From Nitrospirota bacterium (GTDB lineage Bacteria > Nitrospirota > Thermodesulfovibrionia > SZUA-242), in assembly GCA_003235715.1 (NCBI GenBank), contig QJVM01000029.1, forward strand, positions 1 through 36,228: a DNA stretch of 36,228 nt. The letters are read 5' to 3'. This document shows, piece after piece, positions 7,229-35,795 of this stretch. The stretch's first letter is position 1, and the number at the start of each line of letters is the position of its first letter. The translations under genes and the position numbers were made by a program. The notes beneath the pieces are model-generated. The model saw only the letters and a program-made list of their open reading frames with translations. It was not told the origin of the DNA and made no database searches.

Positions 7229-8740
7229 ATGAAGAAGACTCGAACCCTACTGCTCATCGACGAAAGCCCTGACGATACCACCCTTGCTGCCCTTCAGCTG
7301 AGCCGCAATTCCCAAGACGTACGGGTTGAGAAGGTTAGCGATCCCATTACCTTTGCCGAGCATCTTTCGCGCGGAGGTTTTGCCGCCGTGATTACCGAAT
7401 ATGACCTTTCCTGGGGGAACGGGATCAGGGTTCTGGAGGCGGTCAAGGCCCGCTGGCCGCTCTGTCCGGTCATTCTCTTCACTGCGGACCTGAAAGCAGA
7501 GATGCTGTCGGAGGGACTGCGTCTGGGTCTGGACGGCTATCTTCCCAAGACGAGTAGCGGTTTCCTCAGGCTTGCCTCCACGGTGTTTCGCCTGCTCGAC
7601 CGGGAGGCCCCCTTGACGCCCGGGACCGGGGAGGCCCAGCGGTTCAAAAAGGTGATGAAGGGGTTGGCCACGGGCATTTTCAGTGGAACCCGGGCCTCCG
7701 GCATTCTGGAGGCCAATCCGGCCATGGCTCGCATCCTTGGCCTTGCCGGGCCCGAGGCGCTCAAGGGCCGGAACCTTGCTGACTTTATCGTTACGGAAGA
7801 GGGGCGGGAAAAGTGGAGGGCTGTCCTGGACAAGGCGCAGTCCCTGGAGAATGCGGCCCTGACCCTTTCCGGCGGGCCGGGACACAACGCCTGGATCCGA
7901 CTTACGGTATGGGCGACGGAAGACCCGGTATCCCGTGACTGTATCTACGAGGGAATGGCCGAGGACGTCGGCGGCTGGATGCACGCTGAGGAAGAACTGT
8001 CCAAACGCGAAGAGGCGCTGCGGAAGAGCAACGCCGAACTGAAACAGTTCTCGTACATAGTCTCCCACGATCTGCATGAGCCCCTGCAACTCGTGTCCCG
8101 CTACGCGCAGTTGCTTCTGGACCGGTACGGAGGGAAGGTCGACCGCGAGGCCGACCGTTTCCTGTATCACCTGGTGGACAGCGCTCAGAGGATGCAGGAG
8201 CGAATCGACAGTGTGCTCGAGTACGCCACGCTCGGGGCGAAGGGGCTGAAGCTGGTTCCGGTAAGCTTTTCGGGCCTGGTCGACGAAGCCCTGGAGAACC
8301 TGAAAACGCTGTTGGAGGACACGGGGGCTCGGGTGACTTACGAGCATCTTCCCACGATCAATGCCGACCGTTCTCAGATGCTCCAGCTCTTTGAGAATCT
8401 CATTGGCAATGCCCTGAAGTTCAGGGGCGACAATCCGGTACGGGTGCACATTACGGCCGCCAAGCAGGAGGACGGGTGGAGGTTCTCTGTCCAGGATAAC
8501 GGGATCGGTATCGAACCGGCACAGCAGGAACGGATATTCGGCATGTTTCAGCGCCTTCATACAAAGTCCGAGTATCCGGGCACAGGGATCGGTCTGGCCA
8601 TCTGCAAGAAAATCGTTGAGCAGCATAACGGGAAGATCTGGGTAGAGTCTGAGCCGGGCAAGGGGGCCAGGTTCCTTTTCGTCCTGCCCGAGAAGGTGAG
8701 TTCGGAGCCCATGGAGCGGGCCGTTGAGGCGAACGGATGA
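7229..8740 (+). CDS. Histidine kinase: degenerate receiver - PAS - HisKA - HATPase
   Basis: A soluble sensor kinase of 503 residues with no membrane segment. Residues 5-125 are a CheY-like receiver, 135-250 a PAS-like domain, 265-345 a HisKA dimerisation domain with phospho-accepting H280 (SHDLHEP), and 375-490 an ATPase with N-box (NLIGNALKF), G1 (DNGIGI), F-box (FGMFQRLH) and G2 (GTGIGLAI). The kinase core is complete and of the bacteriophytochrome type. In the receiver the phospho-aspartate position holds glutamate (E57, TEYDLSWGNG), eight residues before the conserved glycine, while the acidic pair and the beta5 lysine remain. It overlaps the start of the next gene by four bases (ATGA) if that gene starts at 8737. 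ATG 7229 is chosen for its MKKTRTLLLID start; ATG 7205 is in frame. Confidence 0.92.
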   Translation: MKKTRTLLLIDESPDDTTLAALQLSRNSQDVRVEKVSDPITFAEHLSRGGFAAVITEYDLSWGNGIRVLEAVKARWPLCPVILFTADLKAEMLSEGLRLGLDGYLPKTSSGFLRLASTVFRLLDREAPLTPGTGEAQRFKKVMKGLATGIFSGTRASGILEANPAMARILGLAGPEALKGRNLADFIVTEEGREKWRAVLDKAQSLENAALTLSGGPGHNAWIRLTVWATEDPVSRDCIYEGMAEDVGGWMHAEEELSKREEALRKSNAELKQFSYIVSHDLHEPLQLVSRYAQLLLDRYGGKVDREADRFLYHLVDSAQRMQERIDSVLEYATLGAKGLKLVPVSFSGLVDEALENLKTLLEDTGARVTYEHLPTINADRSQMLQLFENLIGNALKFRGDNPVRVHITAAKQEDGWRFSVQDNGIGIEPAQQERIFGMFQRLHTKSEYPGTGIGLAICKKIVEQHNGKIWVESEPGKGARFLFVLPEKVSSEPMERAVEANG

Positions 8741-8787
8741 AGGACCGTGACCCTGACCAGGGGACATCACAGGAAGAGAGGGCACAT

Positions 8788-10893
8788 ATGTTTCCCGAAA
8801 CCATAAATCTTCTCATGGTGGAGGATACGCCGGCCGAAGCGGAGCTGGTGCAGATCATGCTGTCCGAGGTCCGCCGGGTTCGATACAATGTAACGCACGT
8901 GGAACGCCTTTCGGCGGGCCTGGATATCCTGAGACGCCGGACCCCCGACGTGGTCTTGCTGGATTTCAACCTGCCCGACAGTTCCGGTCTTGAAACCTTC
9001 CGGAGTGTTCACAGTCTTGCACCCCATGTTCCGGTGATTATCCTGACCAACCTGAAAGATGAAGAGATGGCCATCTATGCCGTACGCCAGGGGGCGCAGG
9101 ATTACCTGGTCAAAAGGGAAGTGGACTCCAATCTCCTGTCCCGGGCCATCCGTTATGCCATTGAGCGGTGCGGCTCGGAAAGGGCCCTTCGCGAAAGCGA
9201 GGAAAGGTATGCCTTGGCCGTGAACGGAGCCAATGATGGGATATGGGACTGGAACCTTCAGTCAAACAGCGTGCATTTCTCGGCTCGTTGGAAATCCATG
9301 CAGGGCTACGAACCCGGCGAGATAGGGGATGACGTCAACGAATGGTTTGACCGGATTCACCCGGATGATGCCCCGCAGTTTCATGCGGCCCTGTCGGCCC
9401 ACCTTGAGGGTAAGACCGAGCACTTTGAGTCCGAGTACCGGCTGAGGAGCAAGACCGGTTACTATTTCTGGCGCCTCTCGCGTGGGCTTGCGGTGCGCGA
9501 TCAGGGGGGACGGCCTTACCGCATGGCCGGTTCCCTTACCGATATCTCTTCCCGAAAGGCGGCGGAGGAACAGCTGCAGCGGGAGGCCCTGTACGACTCC
9601 CTGACCGGACTCCCCAACCGCGCCCTCCTCATCGACCGCATCAACCGGGCCATGGAGGTCGCCCGAAGAAGGCCCAAGGCGGAGTTTGCGGTCGTGTACA
9701 TCGACCTTGACCGCTTCAAGATCATTAACGACAGCCTGGGCCATTCGGTGGGGGATGACCTGCTCGTCCAGGTGTCCGAGAGGCTCGGGTCGCTTTTGAG
9801 ACCAGGGGACACCTTTGCCCGCCTCGTCAGTGACGAATTTGTCCTCGTGCTCGGGGACATCGGCGGACTGACCGAAGTCACGGATTTTGCCGAGCAGATT
9901 CTTGAGAGCATCCGGAAGCCCTTTGAGGTGAGCGCCCATGAAATCCGGATCACGGCCAGTGTCGGGGTGGCCATGTACACCCGGAAGTACGAGCGGGCCG
10001 AGGAGATCATCCGGGATGCGGACATCGCCATGTACCGTTCCAAGACCGCGGAAGGCGGAAGGGGGTACGAAATCTTCAACAGTGAGATGCACCAGAGTGT
10101 CGTGGCCCTGCTGCGTCTCGAGACGGACCTGCGCCGGGCTGTGGAGAGGAACGAGTTTGTCATGTATTACCAGCCTATCGTGATTCTGGAGACGGGCCGG
10201 ATCACGGGTTTCGAGGCCCTGATCCGCTGGCAACATCCGGAACGGGGGCTGCTGGCCCCTCAATCCTTTATCACCGTGGCCGAAGAGACCGGGGTTATTG
10301 TTCCCATAGGCTGGTGGGCCCTTGAGCAGGCCTGCGTGCAGCTCAGGAACTGGCACCGACAGTTTCCCATGACGCCTCCACTGTCCGTGAGCGTGAACAT
10401 TTCAGGCAAGGTGCTGAACGAACGCGACGTGGTGCCGAAGATCCTTGCTCTTATTCAGAGGCACGGCCTGACCCCGCAGAATCTCCGGCTGGAGATCACG
10501 GAGAATATGATCATGGACAGCGGCGAGATAAGCAAGGGCAAGCTCTCAGAACTCCAGAAGGCCGGGGTGAAGCTCAACATCGATGATTTCGGAACCGGCT
10601 ATTCGTCCCTCAGCTATCTTCAGAATTTCAAGTACGACTCCCTCAAGATCGACAAGTCCTTCGTGGGCAACCTTGGCAAAGACGCCAACGGCCTCGCCAT
10701 TGTTCAGACCATTGTGGGGCTGGCCAGCCTCCTTAACATGAACGTGATTGCCGAGGGGGTGGAGACGGCGGACCAGCTTCGCACCCTGCGGGACATCTCG
10801 TGTCCACAGGCCCAGGGTTTCTGGTTTGCCGAGCCCATGAGCATCAGCCACGCTGACGGCCTCCTGGCCAAGCAGTCGCTCCGCGTTCATTAG
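8788..10893 (+). CDS. Response regulator: receiver - PAS - GGDEF (degenerate) - EAL, likely c-di-GMP phosphodiesterase
   Basis: A 701-residue cytoplasmic output protein. The receiver (7-125) is intact with phospho-acceptor D59 (LLDFNLPDSSG). A PAS domain (about 140-258, WDWN and WRLSRGL motifs) precedes GGDEF (270-430) and EAL (440-695). The GGDEF signature reads VSDEF (347-351), losing both glycines, but a product-binding RxxD I-site (RPGD) lies five residues before it. The EAL domain keeps EAL (476-478), NIDDFGTGYSS and AEGVET, so c-di-GMP hydrolysis is the likely activity, with the GGDEF acting as a sensor. It is the probable partner of the kinase just upstream. ATG 8788 has GGAAGAGAGGG before it; ATG 8737, overlapping the kinase stop, is a real alternative. 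Confidence 0.93.
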   Translation: MFPETINLLMVEDTPAEAELVQIMLSEVRRVRYNVTHVERLSAGLDILRRRTPDVVLLDFNLPDSSGLETFRSVHSLAPHVPVIILTNLKDEEMAIYAVRQGAQDYLVKREVDSNLLSRAIRYAIERCGSERALRESEERYALAVNGANDGIWDWNLQSNSVHFSARWKSMQGYEPGEIGDDVNEWFDRIHPDDAPQFHAALSAHLEGKTEHFESEYRLRSKTGYYFWRLSRGLAVRDQGGRPYRMAGSLTDISSRKAAEEQLQREALYDSLTGLPNRALLIDRINRAMEVARRRPKAEFAVVYIDLDRFKIINDSLGHSVGDDLLVQVSERLGSLLRPGDTFARLVSDEFVLVLGDIGGLTEVTDFAEQILESIRKPFEVSAHEIRITASVGVAMYTRKYERAEEIIRDADIAMYRSKTAEGGRGYEIFNSEMHQSVVALLRLETDLRRAVERNEFVMYYQPIVILETGRITGFEALIRWQHPERGLLAPQSFITVAEETGVIVPIGWWALEQACVQLRNWHRQFPMTPPLSVSVNISGKVLNERDVVPKILALIQRHGLTPQNLRLEITENMIMDSGEISKGKLSELQKAGVKLNIDDFGTGYSSLSYLQNFKYDSLKIDKSFVGNLGKDANGLAIVQTIVGLASLLNMNVIAEGVETADQLRTLRDISCPQAQGFWFAEPMSISHADGLLAKQSLRVH

Positions 10894-12865: not shown

Positions 12866-14575
12866 TTAAGTAGGATGTTGGCCGGGGAAATAAGTCACTC
12901 CGTCCCAGGCGAAGGGGTCCAACTGGCCTGATGCCAGATGGGTGCCGGCGTAGCGGGCGGCCAGCCCGGTTTTGATCAGGAGGTCGCACAAGGCCCCGTC
13001 GAGATGTTCTTCTGCAACCATAGCCTCCAGGATCCGAACGGCCTCGCTGAGAGGCCTTCCCTTTCTGTAGGGCCGATCCGCTGCAGTTAAGGCTTCAAAG
13101 ACATCAGCCACGGCGAGAACCCGGGCCTGAAGCGGAATCTTCTCGGCCGTCACTCCCCGGGGGTAGCCGGACCCATCCAGCTTTTCATGGTGGGCTCCTG
13201 CGATGAGTGGAACGTTTCTGTATTTCTTCGGGAAGGGCAGGCTTTCCAGCATCCGGATGGTCAGTTCCACGTGCTGGTTGATAATGGCCCGTTCCCGTGC
13301 CGTAAGGGTCCCCCGACGCACCGAAAGGTTTTCCAGTTCTTCAGGAGAGAGCAGGGGATTCTCTGTTTCATTCATGAGGAACCGTTCCTCAGCCAGCGTC
13401 CGAAGATGTTCTATTTTTTCAGTCTCAAGGGTTTCGCCCCCCATGTTGATCTTCTCGATGAAGGCCCGCGCGGCTTCTATCCGCCTCATTTCTTCCCGGT
13501 ACGCGGCATCCCTGATGTGGGACTCCGCTCTGCTGCCAACGCCACGTTGGAGTTGTTCTCTCAGGTGCCGAATCTCAACGTCCCGCTTCAGAATTTCAAA
13601 CCGGTGTCGCAAGAGCTCCATGCGGTCAAACAGCGTTTCCAGCTTTGTACTCTTGTCCACGACGTATTCTGGTGTGGAAACCTTCCCCACATCATGCATC
13701 CACGCCGCCACCCGGAGTTCGTCCATCTGGTCTTCGCTGAAGCGGTGTTCCGCAAACGGACCGGTTGTCGCCGCCGATACCTCGCGGGCCAGCGCTATGG
13801 CCAGGTCCGCGACCCTTTTGATATGACCGCCGGTGAAGGGGGACTTTTCGTCAATCGCCTGGGCAATGGAGCGAATAAAGGATTCGAGCAGATTCTGGAG
13901 TTCATCCAAAAGCTGGACGTTCACCAGGGCCACGGCGGCCTGGGAGGCCAGGGAACCGACGGTGGGAATCTCACTGTCTGAAAAAGGAACGACCTCTCCC
14001 GTATCCGGGTCCATGGCATTGACCAACTGGAGCACTCCGATCACTTCGTCCTCATGATTGACCATGGGCAGAACAAGCATGGAACGAGAGCGGTAGCCAT
14101 TCTTGCGGTCAAAGGCCCGGGTTCCGTCAAAGTCAAAACCCTCGGCTTCATAAACGTCGGCGATGTTTACCGTTTTCCGAACCAGAGCGCAGTAGGCCGA
14201 AACGTTCCGGTGGTTCGCCTCTCCGTCCGAATCGTAAAGCGGCACCGGCGGCCAGGTGATGCCCTCTCCGGTGCCTCCCATACGGAGGTTGAGCGTTCGG
14301 TTCTGAATGATGGCGAAATCCAGATTTCTGCGACCGGGATCAGCCGTGTAGAGGGCTCCACCGTCCGCATGGGTCAGCGCCATGGCTTCCTGGACGATGA
14401 GGTCCAGAAGATGGTCCAGTCTTCTCTCTGCCGAGAGGGCAATGCCTACGGCCACCAGTTTTCGGAAGCGGGAAACCGTATTCGCCTCCTGCAGGCGGAG
14501 TTCAGGTTCCCCTGCCTGAGGGCCTCGAGTTTGTTTGGAACTTTTGCGCCACGACGGGTCTGAAGGTTGGGTCAT
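12866..14575 (-). CDS. GAF-HD-GYP protein, predicted c-di-GMP phosphodiesterase
   Basis: A 569-residue cytoplasmic protein. A GAF domain occupies about 35-220, and an HD-GYP domain 230-545. The metal-binding residues are H251, H294/D295 (MHDVGK), H435, H462 and H463; the GYP signature reads HHEKLDGSGYP (GYP 470-472), so the enzyme should cut c-di-GMP to pGpG or GMP. Between the HD motif and H435 there is an extra charged, helical segment of roughly 100 residues (about 310-420) compared with a minimal HD-GYP domain. This DKSTKLETLFDR-type insertion is, from memory, shared by a deltaproteobacterial subgroup. ATG 14575 has GAGAGGGA upstream. It lies 148 bases downstream of nfnB on the same strand. 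Confidence 0.92.
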   Translation of the reverse strand: MTQPSDPSWRKSSKQTRGPQAGEPELRLQEANTVSRFRKLVAVGIALSAERRLDHLLDLIVQEAMALTHADGGALYTADPGRRNLDFAIIQNRTLNLRMGGTGEGITWPPVPLYDSDGEANHRNVSAYCALVRKTVNIADVYEAEGFDFDGTRAFDRKNGYRSRSMLVLPMVNHEDEVIGVLQLVNAMDPDTGEVVPFSDSEIPTVGSLASQAAVALVNVQLLDELQNLLESFIRSIAQAIDEKSPFTGGHIKRVADLAIALAREVSAATTGPFAEHRFSEDQMDELRVAAWMHDVGKVSTPEYVVDKSTKLETLFDRMELLRHRFEILKRDVEIRHLREQLQRGVGSRAESHIRDAAYREEMRRIEAARAFIEKINMGGETLETEKIEHLRTLAEERFLMNETENPLLSPEELENLSVRRGTLTARERAIINQHVELTIRMLESLPFPKKYRNVPLIAGAHHEKLDGSGYPRGVTAEKIPLQARVLAVADVFEALTAADRPYRKGRPLSEAVRILEAMVAEEHLDGALCDLLIKTGLAARYAGTHLASGQLDPFAWDGVTYFPGQHPT

Positions 14576-17008: not shown

Positions 17009-17221
17009 CTTTTCCTCTTTTCAGTATGCAGGCGGGTGGCTCAGAAAGGGCGGTATCCGGTCAGCCGAGTCAGACCTGTGTGTTCGGATTTTGTCTGCCA
17101 CTATTATATACGGATGGACTGGCCCACTTCAGACGGCGTGCCGAAGATGATGTACGGGACTTGTTGTCAGTGTGGTCATATGCCCGTAAAATGGTACCGT
17201 TGTGGAAGCGTGCATCTCGAA

Positions 17222-18178
17222 ATGAGCGAACCGACACCTGATCCTCACGTCCCCACCGGGGAGATCGCTTCTCCGGAAATGAGCAGGATTCTGGTTGTGG
17301 ACGACGAGACGTCCATCGTCCGTTTCCTCAAGGAGGTGTTGGAAGAGGCCGGGTATCATGTGACACCGGCCTCCACGACCCATGAAGCCATGGGACATCT
17401 GGCCGCTGCTGCCTTCGACCTTCTGATCACCGACATTCTCATGCCAGGGTCCGACGGGCTTGAACTGGCCCGCTTCACAGCCGGGAAGTACGATACGGAC
17501 ATCATCCTGATGACGGGCTACGCAGAGGAGTTCACCTATGAGCTGGCCGTCGAACACGGGGCCACGGATTTTCTTGTAAAACCCCTGCGTCCCCGCGAGA
17601 CGGTCCTCAGGGTCAAGCGGGTTCTGAGGGAGCGTGCGTTGAAGAAGGACCGCGAGAGCATGATCAGAAGCCTTGAGGAGATGGCCATTACCGATGCCCT
17701 GACCGGTCTTTATAACTCAAGGCACTTCTACGGCCGTATCGAGATCGAGGTGAGCTCGGCCGGCCGTTATGGTACGCCCCTGTCACTCCTGATGCTGGAC
17801 ATCGATGATTTCAAGGAGTATAACGATACCTTCGGCCATCTCGAGGGAGATGGCGTGCTCGTTCGGATCGGGGACGTCTTTAGGGAATGTCTGAGAAAAT
17901 CTGACTCGGCCTACCGCTATGGCGGAGAGGAGTTTGCCCTGATCCTTTCCCGGACGCACACGCCGGAGGCCGTGGCCGTGGCTCACCGTATTCGCGAGGA
18001 GATAGAGGCCAGCGAACTCAGTCCCAGGCCCGGGCATAGCATGCGCATTACGGCCAGTATCGGCGTTGCGGAACACCGACCCGGAGAATCAGCGGCGGAC
18101 TTCATCCGGAGGGCGGACCAGGCCCTTTATGAGTCCAAACGGCAGGGGAAAAACCGAGTGTCCATCTCGAGAAAGTGA
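17222..18178 (+). CDS. Response regulator diguanylate cyclase: receiver - GGDEF
   Basis: A 318-residue PleD/WspR-like protein that makes c-di-GMP when phosphorylated. The receiver (20-140) is intact, with acceptor D71 (LLITDILMPGSDG), T98 and K120. The cyclase domain (152-315) carries GGEEF at 234-238 and an I-site RKSD (R225-D228), so product inhibition is expected. No kinase gene is adjacent. Start uncertain: ATG 17222 is chosen because it gives a short polar lead; ATG 17279 is directly before the receiver, and the frame runs upstream to 17036 through a cysteine-containing stretch. A TATTATATA stretch at 17102-17110 may be a -10 element, supporting a start downstream of it. Confidence 0.92.
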   Translation: MSEPTPDPHVPTGEIASPEMSRILVVDDETSIVRFLKEVLEEAGYHVTPASTTHEAMGHLAAAAFDLLITDILMPGSDGLELARFTAGKYDTDIILMTGYAEEFTYELAVEHGATDFLVKPLRPRETVLRVKRVLRERALKKDRESMIRSLEEMAITDALTGLYNSRHFYGRIEIEVSSAGRYGTPLSLLMLDIDDFKEYNDTFGHLEGDGVLVRIGDVFRECLRKSDSAYRYGGEEFALILSRTHTPEAVAVAHRIREEIEASELSPRPGHSMRITASIGVAEHRPGESAADFIRRADQALYESKRQGKNRVSISRK

Positions 18179-18235: not shown

Positions 18236-18730
18236 TCAGATGGGCAAGAAACTGCTGCAGCGTCCGCACTTGGGGTTAGAGGACATCCTGGATAGTGGCA
18301 CGCGGTTCTTGACTCCGCAGACGGCACACACGACGATGCGGCTTTCCTTGGGCGGGAGTCCGGGACCGGCCGGCTTCCAGCCGTCCACGAAGGGGACGTC
18401 TTCCATCCTTAAACCCTCTCCGATGACCTCTTCCAGCATCCTGACATAATTCAGGTCACAACACCGAAGTTCGATTCCCATTCCGTTCTTGATTAAAGGG
18501 GAATTGGACTTGGCGGCTCGCCGTACCAGGCCGGTCCCGTGGGCCCTGCCGCCGTCCTTCAGGTACACCATGAATTCGATGTGACTGCCGGGCGTGAGAC
18601 AGTTGCTGGTCCGGATGAACAAACCCTTTTCGGACAGGTTGCTCGAGATTCCCTTGAACACCTTGTCCTCAAAGTAAAAGTCAGTCTCCAGTCGGCGGAT
18701 ATGCCTTTCGTGCAGGCGGTTTTTCTTCAT
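18236..18730 (-). CDS. PilZ domain protein with C-terminal TrxC-like zinc ribbon
   Basis: A 164-residue predicted c-di-GMP receptor. The PilZ part (about 5-105) shows the RxxxR motif (RHIRR) and NLSEKG, the (D/N)xSxxG motif, with the expected GLFIRT continuation. The last 30 residues hold VCAVCGVKNRVP and PKCGRCSSF, a two-CxxC zinc ribbon resembling the N-terminal ribbon of thioredoxin 2 (TrxC) rather than any usual PilZ partner. ATG 18730 is chosen from the typical PilZ N-terminus; ATG 18793, with GGGGTG eight bases upstream, would add 21 basic residues. It is divergent from argH and convergent with the diguanylate cyclase gene. Confidence 0.82.
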   Translation of the reverse strand: MKKNRLHERHIRRLETDFYFEDKVFKGISSNLSEKGLFIRTSNCLTPGSHIEFMVYLKDGGRAHGTGLVRRAAKSNSPLIKNGMGIELRCCDLNYVRMLEEVIGEGLRMEDVPFVDGWKPAGPGLPPKESRIVVCAVCGVKNRVPLSRMSSNPKCGRCSSFLPI

Positions 18731-18797
18731 AAGCGGCTTCTGCCTTCTACCCTGCCGTATCGTCCGCTTCAGACCGGAAAGTAAGAGGGTCATTTGC

Positions 18798-18826
18798 TTG
18801 ACACCCCGGGGGGGCTCATTTATTCT
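18798..18826 (+). promoter_or_regulatory. Sigma70 promoter of argH with a very short or absent leader
   Basis: TTGACA (18798-18803, perfect -35) and TATTCT (18821-18826, four of six) are spaced by exactly 17 bases. Transcription would start around 18832-18834, and the argH start codon is at 18834. No ribosome-binding site lies between, so the transcript is predicted to be leaderless. Confidence 0.65.
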
Positions 18827-18833
18827 ACGGACC

Positions 18834-20216
18834 ATGTCTTCGAAAAAGCTCTGGGGCGGAAGATTCGACAAGGCCACGGACGATGCCGTGGAGCGTTTTA
18901 CCGAATCCCTTTCTTTTGACCAACGCCTCTGGCCCTACGATATCCAGGGGAGCATGGCGCATGTCCGGATGCTCGCACGGCAACGCGTCATCCCGAAGGG
19001 GGATGCGGCCCTGATCCTCAAAGGTCTGCGGGATATCGCCGCGGAACTCAAGGGTGGAACCTTTCCCTTCCGGAGCGAGTACGAGGACATTCATATGAAT
19101 ATCGAGGCCCGCCTCATGGAGAAGATCGGCCCCGTCGGGGGCCGGTTGCATACGGCAAGGAGCCGGAACGACCAGGTGGCCCTGGACATACGCCTTTTCC
19201 TGAGAGAGGAAACCCGGACCCTGCTCAAGCTCCTCACGAAGCTTCGCAAATCCGTTGTGCTCACGGCCGAGCGAAACACGGAGGTTTTGCTCCCGGGGTA
19301 CACCCACCTTCAGAGGGCTCAACCGGTGCTCCTGGCCCACCACCTGCTGGCCTATTACGAGATGTTCCGCCGGGACGAGGCGCGCTTCAACGACCTGCTT
19401 CCGCGCATCAATGTTCTGCCCCTTGGCTCCGCGGCACTGGCGGGAACCACGTTCCCCATTGATCGCCATTACGTGGCAAGGCAACTCGGGTTCGAAGCCG
19501 TATCCGAAAACAGCCTCGATGCCGTTTCGGACCGAGACTTCGTGATTGATTTTCTTTCTGCCGCTTCGGTGCTGATGATGCATCTGTCCCGGCTGAGCGA
19601 AGAGATCGTTTTGTGGTCCAGCGGAGAATTCGGCTTTATCGAACTCCCTGATGCCTTTGCCACCGGGTCGTCCATCATGCCCCAGAAGAAGAACCCGGAT
19701 GTTGCGGAACTGACACGGGGGAAAACCGGCCGCGTCTATGGGAGCCTTGTGACGCTTTTGACCGTGATGAAGGGACTTCCGTTGGCCTATAACCGCGATA
19801 TGCAGGAGGACAAGGAGCCCCTTTTCGATGCGGTGGATACCGCCAAGGCTTGTGTGGACCTCATGTCGCGGATGCTCCCGCGGCTCAAGGTCCGGGCAGA
19901 CAGGATGAGGGACGCCGCGGAAGAGGGCTTTACCACGGCTACGGACCTGGCCGATTATCTCGTGGCCCGGGGGATGCCCTTCCGGGAAGCTCATGCCGTA
20001 GCTGGTAAGGCCGTGGCCCACTGCCTGGCCGGGCACAAGAAGCTTCAGGACCTTTCGACGGATGAACTGAAAGCGTATGCTCCCGGCATCCGGGAGGATG
20101 TCCGGGAATGGCTTTCGGTCGAGGGGTCTGCTTCCCGTCGCAAATCCCACGGGGGTACGGCGAAGGAACGGGTGCTCAAGCGGCTGAAGCAAATCCGGAC
20201 CGGAGAACTGGACTGA
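18834..20216 (+). CDS. argH: Argininosuccinate lyase
   Basis: A 460-residue enzyme of the fumarase/aspartase superfamily that splits argininosuccinate into arginine and fumarate, the last step of arginine synthesis. The conserved KLWGGRF start, TARSRNDQ, the GYTHLQRAQP helix and the signature GSSIMPQKKNPD are all present, and the length matches the family. The start ATG 18834 fits the invariant KLWGGRF segment; a TTG at 18798 in frame falls inside the promoter. There is no Shine-Dalgarno sequence. The next gene, a lipoprotein, begins 45 bases downstream, a common position for lipoproteins of this kind. Confidence 0.97.
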   Translation: MSSKKLWGGRFDKATDDAVERFTESLSFDQRLWPYDIQGSMAHVRMLARQRVIPKGDAALILKGLRDIAAELKGGTFPFRSEYEDIHMNIEARLMEKIGPVGGRLHTARSRNDQVALDIRLFLREETRTLLKLLTKLRKSVVLTAERNTEVLLPGYTHLQRAQPVLLAHHLLAYYEMFRRDEARFNDLLPRINVLPLGSAALAGTTFPIDRHYVARQLGFEAVSENSLDAVSDRDFVIDFLSAASVLMMHLSRLSEEIVLWSSGEFGFIELPDAFATGSSIMPQKKNPDVAELTRGKTGRVYGSLVTLLTVMKGLPLAYNRDMQEDKEPLFDAVDTAKACVDLMSRMLPRLKVRADRMRDAAEEGFTTATDLADYLVARGMPFREAHAVAGKAVAHCLAGHKKLQDLSTDELKAYAPGIREDVREWLSVEGSASRRKSHGGTAKERVLKRLKQIRTGELD

Positions 20217-34010: not shown

Positions 34011-35795
34011 ATGGAAACCGTTGAACAACAGACGACCGGGGGGCATCCCTCCGCTACGGCGGCTCCGCGGCAGGAACGCCGAAGAAGCCGTCGCATTCGT
34101 CGTCGGCTCGAGGTGAAGCTGGAAACCGAGCGGACCTCCGTCGCCGGACATACGCTGGACGTTTCCTCATTCGGGGCAAGACTGCTCCTGCCAAAGGCCG
34201 TCCCTCTCGTGGCCGGAGAACGCTACGGGATGATCTTTACCGAGCTTAAATCCGTGGTCAACGTGCAGATCATATGGGTCAACCGCCAGCCCGAACACGT
34301 GGTGGCCGGGGTCTGCAAGGTTTTGACACGCGAAGGCAACCTCGGCACCACGCCCCTTCATGAAATTTTGTTTGAACTCATGGTCCGGCAGCGAACGGGC
34401 GAACTCAAGTTCATCCGGGGGGCCGCGCACAAGAGCATCTTTGTAAGAAATGGGGAGATCATCTGGGCCACGTCAGACCAGGAGTTCGATTCCCTGGGCG
34501 CCCTCATGGTCAGGGACGGAAGACTGGATTCGGCCACCTATGAACGGCTGGTGGGCATTAATTTCCGTCAGTCCGAAAAGACTGTGGAGTCCCTGCTTCT
34601 GGAGAGGGGGCACCTCAAGGCGAAAGACCTGGAAGAGGCCGAGGCCTTTCGAACGGCTGAGACCGTCAAGGGACTCTTCGGTTGGTCCGAGGGGGAGTTC
34701 ATGTTCGACGACGGACGACGCCCCCCCCAGTTCGTCACCCTGCGCACTTCCACCTCGAATCTGATCGTGGAAGGTATCCGGAGGGCGTCCATGGAGCGGG
34801 TCAACGAGATTCTGGAGCCTATCAAGGATATTCCCCTTTCAGTCAGCCTCGACCCTTTGAGACTGTTCCAGCAGGTTTCCCTGAAGGACGAGGAAAAGAC
34901 CGTCATGGGGATGGTGGACGGGAAGACTTCGCTTACGGCCCTGGGCCAGAAATGTACCTATCCTCAGGAGGTCCTCCGCCGGGCGGTGGCGGTTCTGACC
35001 GGGGCCTATCTGATTGAACTCGGCGAAAGCATCGAGGAGGACGCGGAGACCGATTTGGAATCCGGGGCGGAACCCTCCAATGAAAAGGGTGTGGTGGAGG
35101 CCCGTATCGACCAGATGTACCGCCGGCTTCACGACCTGACGCATTACGAAATTCTGGGGGTTCCGCAATCTGCGGACGGCGCCCGGCTCAAGAAGGCCTA
35201 TTATCAGAAGGCCCGCGACTTCCACCCCGACCTTCACCACAAACTCGGCAAGGGATATGGCTCCAAGCTGAATGTCATTTTCAGCCTGGTGAACGAGGTG
35301 TACGAGGTTCTTTCTGATAACGACAAGAGAAAAAAGTATGACCATACCCTGGATTACCTGAGGTCCAAGCGCGTCACGGGCAGCGTGGGGAGTGCCGCTC
35401 CAAGGCCGGCGACGAGCCCGCCGGAGGCCGGTCTCTCGGCCGAGGACATGTACCGCAACGGAAATACCAAGTACAACGCCCGCGATTTTGCGGCGGCGGC
35501 CGAGTTCTACAAGAATGCGGCCCGGCTCGACCCTGAGAAGGGGGTCTACTTTTTCGCGGCCGGCAAGACCCTGATGTTTGTCCCCAAGAGACTGAAGGAG
35601 GCCGAGGAGTATCTTTTGAAATCCGTGGAAAAGGAGCCCTTTAACACGCGGTATCTCCTTGAACTTGGAAATCTTTATCTGAAAGCCCGTCTCGGTACGC
35701 GCGCGGTCCGGACTTTCGAAGAAGTCCTGAAGATCGACCAGAACAATGCCATAGGCAAGAAGGGCTACGAAGCCGCCAAACGCCTCGCCACCTGA
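34011..35795 (+). CDS. PilZ - DUF4388 - DnaJ - TPR protein
   Basis: A 594-residue cytoplasmic protein with four parts. Residues 22-105 are PilZ, with a basic RxxxR region and D50-V-S-S-F-G (DxSxxG), so c-di-GMP binding is expected. About 110-335 is a DUF4388/PATAN-type domain (FELMVRQRTGELKF, SIFVRNGEIIWATS). Residues 376-445 are a J domain with HPD at 405-407, the Hsp70-stimulating motif. A proline/alanine linker (452-475) leads to about three TPR units (476-590). It could couple the second messenger to a DnaK-dependent step. The start is ATG 34011; GAGGG is about 16 bases upstream. It stands alone after the U32 gene. Confidence 0.85.
   Translation: METVEQQTTGGHPSATAAPRQERRRSRRIRRRLEVKLETERTSVAGHTLDVSSFGARLLLPKAVPLVAGERYGMIFTELKSVVNVQIIWVNRQPEHVVAGVCKVLTREGNLGTTPLHEILFELMVRQRTGELKFIRGAAHKSIFVRNGEIIWATSDQEFDSLGALMVRDGRLDSATYERLVGINFRQSEKTVESLLLERGHLKAKDLEEAEAFRTAETVKGLFGWSEGEFMFDDGRRPPQFVTLRTSTSNLIVEGIRRASMERVNEILEPIKDIPLSVSLDPLRLFQQVSLKDEEKTVMGMVDGKTSLTALGQKCTYPQEVLRRAVAVLTGAYLIELGESIEEDAETDLESGAEPSNEKGVVEARIDQMYRRLHDLTHYEILGVPQSADGARLKKAYYQKARDFHPDLHHKLGKGYGSKLNVIFSLVNEVYEVLSDNDKRKKYDHTLDYLRSKRVTGSVGSAAPRPATSPPEAGLSAEDMYRNGNTKYNARDFAAAAEFYKNAARLDPEKGVYFFAAGKTLMFVPKRLKEAEEYLLKSVEKEPFNTRYLLELGNLYLKARLGTRAVRTFEEVLKIDQNNAIGKKGYEAAKRLAT

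Follow-up and report, generated by a model that had tools for sequence, protein, structure and literature searches.

A candidate c-di-GMP-responsive J-domain co-chaperone with PilZ, PATAN and TPR domains in Nitrospirota

What might a single protein do that carries a PilZ domain, a DUF4388 domain, a J domain and tetratricopeptide repeats (TPRs), and at which machine of the cell would it act? The gene for such a protein lies at 34011-35795 on the plus strand of the window (the whole stretch of DNA analysed, 36,228 nucleotides from a Nitrospirota genome), and its product was originally predicted to be a c-di-GMP-linked co-chaperone serving TPR-bound clients. The best explanation may be a cytosolic, c-di-GMP-responsive J co-chaperone that recruits DnaK to a machine of the type IV pilus or type II secretion type, a reading preferred here tentatively and with slightly less than even confidence.

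Domain order and motifs of the window protein

The frame at 34011-35795 is open from end to end, starts with ATG and encodes a PilZ-PATAN-J-TPR protein of 594 aa, and the predicted order of PilZ, DUF4388, DnaJ and TPR has been borne out by Pfam, by phmmer in the case of the TPRs, and by an AF2 model (pLDDT 88.3, pTM 0.61) for which an alignment of 48 relatives served as input. The PilZ domain spans aa 22-104 (34074-34322, as all features below on the plus strand), with a Pfam match at aa 22-97 (E 1.7e-7, 31.9 bits against a cut-off of 22.5) and a barrel of beta strands at residues 34-103 of the model. It carries the RxxxR motif (R24/R28; 34080-34094) and the DxSxxG motif, correctly recognised in the original prediction, which reads DVSSFG (D50-G55; 34158-34175). 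It is followed at aa 108-259 (34332-34787) by DUF4388 (E 5.6e-17, 62.3 bits against a curated cut-off of 25), listed as PF14332, which we take to be the PATAN domain. The J domain at aa 377-444 (35139-35342; Pfam DnaJ E 1.3e-16) has the intact HPD motif that had been claimed for it (aa 405-407; 35223-35231). The TPR array, of about three repeats and a capping helix at aa 477-593 (35439-35789), was assigned by phmmer, with E 1e-34 against designed TPR proteins, and by Foldseek, with a TM of 0.88 by target length against 1na0; the Pfam TPR models at aa 477-580 each score below the single-repeat cut-off. A Foldseek search at full length was uninformative, as TPR matches dominate.

In the AF2 model the DUF4388 core encloses a four-helix insertion (about 161-222), and a winged-helix-like segment, the J-domain helices and seven TPR helices are modelled at high confidence and with two short disordered linkers, disorder being confined to aa 1-24, 343-355 and 458-473. 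Neither the insertion nor the winged-helix-like segment (aa 276-337; 34836-35021), the latter assigned by eye from the AF2 secondary structure, had been part of the earlier reading.

By architecture, the protein is a class C (III) J-domain co-chaperone, for which stimulation of DnaK is predicted; Pfam found no zinc finger and no C-terminal domain of class A/B DnaJ proteins in it, down to E 10. By the same measure it is a PilZ protein, with RxxxR and [D/N]xSxxG on a PilZ fold, for which binding of c-di-GMP is predicted. It shares both motifs and the fold with PilZ c-di-GMP receptors and differs from them in that its PilZ domain is fused to a J protein, a fusion that was not found in the literature searched. 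A c-di-GMP-linked co-chaperone is the most natural reading of the domains, and one that the conservation described below partly supports.

The same genome encodes, on contig C92, a DnaK beside a DnaJ, and also a PilM and seven matches to MshEN, mostly in frames of the size of motor ATPases. Elsewhere in this genome, an Hsp70 gene is split over two overlapping frames (contig C194:20630-22392), possibly by a frameshift or an assembly error, and another partial Hsp70 match lies on C56. The window itself also holds a REC-PAS-GGDEF-EAL gene (8737-10893, plus strand), a gene with GAF and HD-GYP-like domains (12866-14575, minus strand), a REC-GGDEF gene (17036-18178, plus strand) and a second PilZ gene, with a zinc ribbon (18236-18877, minus strand).

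The insertion in the PATAN domain

The family to which the protein belongs comes in two kinds, group A with a PilZ domain (about 560 aa) and group B without it (about 485 aa), and in both the helical insertion in DUF4388 resembles the MshEN module of motor ATPases. When a profile of the insertion, built without the window family, was aligned by hhalign with a profile of the MshEN N-termini of PilB/GspE-type ATPases, the match to MshEN_N had a probability of 98.9 and an E of 3.5e-17 over 53 ungapped columns, as against a probability of 0.3% for control regions (J, TPR and winged-helix). These 53 residues are exactly the length of the published MshEN motif, 24+5+24 (PMC5013675). NF053729 of NCBIfam, which models the MshE-related c-di-GMP motif over 53 positions, matches 42 of the 48 members (best E 7e-15), and its cut-off of 38 bits is exceeded by L011, at 46.6 bits, and by L045. 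For the DUF4388 domain of L011, an AF2 model (pLDDT 92.5) has as its best PDB match 5htl, which is MshE with c-di-GMP (53 residues, rmsd 0.6 A, 42% identity), a Foldseek match whose E is only 7e-3 over a short stretch and of which the hhalign sequence test is independent; c-di-GMP-bound PilF domains are also among the best matches. By these profile comparisons, the family insertion has been shown to be a homologue of MshEN. It has the same 24+5+24 motif and fold as the MshEN/GSPII module of MshE, PilF and PilB, and differs in being inserted in PATAN rather than placed at the N-terminus of an ATPase, and in lacking MshEN_C and the Gln of the first motif.

An MshEN module is defined by two 24-residue motifs with R1, L2, G3, G10 and Q24, joined by a spacer of five residues, and members outside the window family have this motif and the four-helix fold, with the exception that Q24 of the first motif is almost never present. 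Across groups A and B, 75-84% of the sequences retain the first Arg, 78-100% the first Gly and 88-96% the Gln of the second motif. Binding of c-di-GMP by the intact insertions of the family is plausible, not certain, because Arg, Gly and the second Gln are kept and the first-motif Gln is nearly absent.

The insertion of the window protein (aa 161-213; 34491-34649) is degenerate: R1 is lost in both motifs, as are G3 and Q24 of the second, and NF053729 finds no match in this protein, while in hhalign the window-family insertion is still visibly homologous to MshEN (probability 83, E 9e-6). Binding of c-di-GMP by the window protein through this insertion was considered and ruled out, since the motif is lost.

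A separate DUF4388 protein of the same genome, without a J domain (L043:676-1773, on contig C52), has an insertion that scores 55.8 bits against the NF053729 cut-off of 38, a score from which it follows that PATAN domains beyond the J-protein family may be c-di-GMP receptors. A link between PATAN and MshEN as homologous parts was not found in the literature searched, with most subscription journals outside its scope.

Spread of the family and reciprocal loss of its modules

The original prediction had pointed to domain searches across genomes, and these have revealed relatives at E<=1e-30 in 125 of 396 genomes of the phylum, often as several paralogues; at E<=1e-20, a match is present in 25 of 61 genomes searched. 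The window gene is single-copy in its own genome. Genomes of the same family contain a full-length homologue at 45-51% identity, and the domain order is kept in relatives with 43-50% identity from the same family and with about 24-32% from other families. A chance fusion or frameshift artefact was ruled out by this recurrence across many families. In a search of genome contigs, the related loci were all J-domain (DnaJ-like) ones from Cloacimonadota; plasmids yielded nothing beyond J-domain genes and a single DUF4388 protein, and viral sequences nothing beyond generic TPR/J matches. As had been suspected, the PilZ-PATAN-J-TPR architecture was not found in any paper of the literature searched, most subscription journals being outside that scope, and the family, which is widespread, appears to be undescribed.

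In profile searches, DUF4388, DnaJ and TPR are found in 48/48 members and PilZ scores in 24/48. The HPD motif is present in 90 of 92 aligned members, the remaining two (L029 and L030) having no J domain, and helix II around it is strongly conserved in the alignment. Among PilZ-bearing members, R24/R28 are aligned in 66/67, the DxSxxG residues likewise in 66/67, and both motifs together in 65/67. Some larger variants of 628-855 aa with C-terminal extensions (L021, L023, L025, L026, L029 and L030) have DYSDG in place of DxSxxG, so that S and G are one residue closer together.

Core-region trees place the window family, which consists of three genomes in which PilZ is kept and the MshEN motif lost, as sister to 23 group B sequences in which PilZ is absent and the MshEN motif kept. 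This grouping is supported at 0.994 with the core region, 0.997 without the insertion and 0.977 with J and TPR alone, as well as by a UFBoot of 100 (IQ-TREE), and group A, mostly with both modules, falls outside the sister pair. The simplest history would be that an ancestor had both modules and that each branch lost a different one. If so, retention of one c-di-GMP module would seem to matter. There is an exception in L027/L028, which have no PilZ and a weakened MshEN motif, so that c-di-GMP sensing would not be universal in the family.

The pilus motor as a candidate target

Several known systems bear on where such a protein would act. PATAN regulators of Synechocystis have PilB1 and PilC of the type IV pilus as binding partners (PMC12288463, PMC10519157); these proteins (PixG, PixE, LsiR and TaxP2) share with the window protein the PATAN/DUF4388 domain, proposed here as a dock on the pilus motor, and differ in having a receiver domain where the window protein has PilZ, J and TPR. 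In cyanobacteria, a chaperone system made up of DnaK1, GrpE and the TPR-containing DnaJ3 operates on the pilus motor; cells need it to move and to produce polysaccharide normally (PMC9239167, PMC12288463), and it works by a mechanism that is as yet unknown (PMC12288463). In Myxococcus, the PATAN proteins MXAN_3211 and MXAN_4965 co-occur with SgmX, needed for polar PilB (PMC11580455), and here too TPR and PATAN proteins are tied to pilus regulation, with the difference that no J domain is mentioned. Thus, the window protein joins parts that are separately known at the pilus motor, as PATAN regulators and the TPR-containing DnaJ3 with DnaK1 both act there. It resembles the DnaK1-DnaJ3-GrpE system in combining a J domain and TPRs, and differs, in a comparison made by description only, in that DnaJ3 has been described without PilZ or PATAN, whereas here sensor, PATAN and J-TPR are in one chain. 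By analogy, and with no claim of orthology, the window protein may work like that chaperone system.

The genomic neighbourhoods speak to this in part. The window gene begins 50 bases beyond a U32 peptidase gene, and with 433 bases of contig left on its other side the next gene lies outside the sequence; in the window and in two genomes of the same family it is housekeeping genes (murA, rnhA, HNH) that precede it, without pilus genes. In the DnaK1-DnaJ3 system, grpE/dnaK1 are often upstream of pilBTC. At the window locus there are no pilus genes, and it is in the relatives L089 and L099 that the gene lies by PilB/PilC-like genes, 0.4 kb before a PilB/GspE-type ATPase gene (which in L089 scores better as GspE than as PilB) that is followed by a PilC/GspF-like gene. 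In two further loci from two families, L069 and L105, the gene runs into an overlapping coiled-coil gene, after which come pilM, pilN and pilO and, in L105, the genes up to pilQ. Direct adjacency to the pilus core is seen in 4 of 80 neighbourhoods, from three independent families, as against a rough chance estimate of about 0.3 in 80; pilus core genes within about 8 kb occur in 6 of 80, near the rough chance estimate. The family is present in 124 of 353 PilT-positive and 1 of 43 PilT-negative genomes (p 9e-7, confounded by phylogeny); since PilT is present in almost every genome, this co-occurrence is weak evidence.

A coiled-coil gene lies directly 3' of the J-protein gene in about eight loci (L069:6528-7904, L105:10822-12042, L117, L074, L077, L120, L129 and L141); it encodes a putative membrane segment, cannot be convincingly assigned to a Pfam family and sometimes overlaps the J-protein gene, and coiled-coil similarity alone is weak evidence. 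In one of the same-family genomes, the product of the next gene (L067:261-5036, minus strand) has 1591 aa, several LamG domains and the N-methylation motif (N_methyl) of type IV pilins.

A c-di-GMP-responsive J protein with a client other than the pilus (for example in the export of polysaccharide or the assembly of the cell envelope, or else a wide range of TPR-bound proteins) is an unlikely alternative: the PilZ, HPD and MshEN motifs fit it equally, about 74 of the 80 neighbourhoods have no pilus core genes, and in many group B loci the gene is preceded by two others, judged by eye to be polyprenyl synthase-like and AMMECR1-like. Against it, the partners known for PATAN, from cyanobacterial members only, are pilus motor proteins (PMC12288463), and in three families the gene is beside pilus or pilus-like genes. 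The c-di-GMP-linked co-chaperone of the original prediction has gained from the conservation of HPD and PilZ and from the reciprocal loss of modules, whereas TPR-bound clients in general give way to the pilus motor, which is better supported because the partners of PATAN known by experiment in cyanobacteria are PilB and PilC, and DnaK1/DnaJ3 act there.

It is less probable again that the PilZ and MshEN-like parts are docking modules without a ligand and that DnaK recruitment is constitutive. The PilZ protein of Xanthomonas docks on the N-terminal domain of PilB without ligand, the L011 model also matched the N-domain of PilB as it stands in 7lkm, a complex of PilB and PilZ (Foldseek prob 0.97), and the degenerate MshEN motif of the window family would fit such a role; a docking-only PilZ like that of Xanthomonas, however, would be expected to lose the ligand motifs that nearly all PilZ-bearing members keep. 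A scaffold whose J domain has ceased to cooperate with DnaK, so that only the TPR and PATAN parts matter, is very improbable: the J domain is dispensable in some variants, being absent from L029 and L030, but HPD is found in 90/90 members that have a J domain, helix II is strongly conserved and DnaK is encoded in the same genome.

Under the preferred reading of a c-di-GMP-responsive co-chaperone at a pilus-type machine, c-di-GMP would bind the N-terminal PilZ domain or, in sister lineages, the PATAN-embedded bundle of MshEN type, and binding would alter the docking of the PATAN and TPR parts on the motor complex, at the level of PilB/PilC. The J domain would then recruit DnaK and stimulate its ATPase at the motor, and DnaK loaded on the motor or on a motor-bound client would tune pilus activity or linked secretion, in a direction that is likewise putative.

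A stronger form of this proposal, in which interchangeable PilZ or PATAN-inserted MshEN modules make a direct switch from c-di-GMP to Hsp70 that gates DnaK at the type IV pilus motor, is conceivable, if rather doubtful. To our knowledge, no direct link is known between c-di-GMP signalling and the chaperone layer. If such a switch exists, c-di-GMP would control a chaperone directly and two signalling layers would be joined, which would suggest a route by which DnaK reaches pilus motors, a step that work on the cyanobacterial DnaK1 system leaves unexplained (PMC12288463). PATAN domains with intact insertions would then be a broad class of c-di-GMP receptors that has so far gone unrecognised, and many PATAN proteins, such as L043 of the same genome, would be predicted to sense c-di-GMP through their helical insertion.
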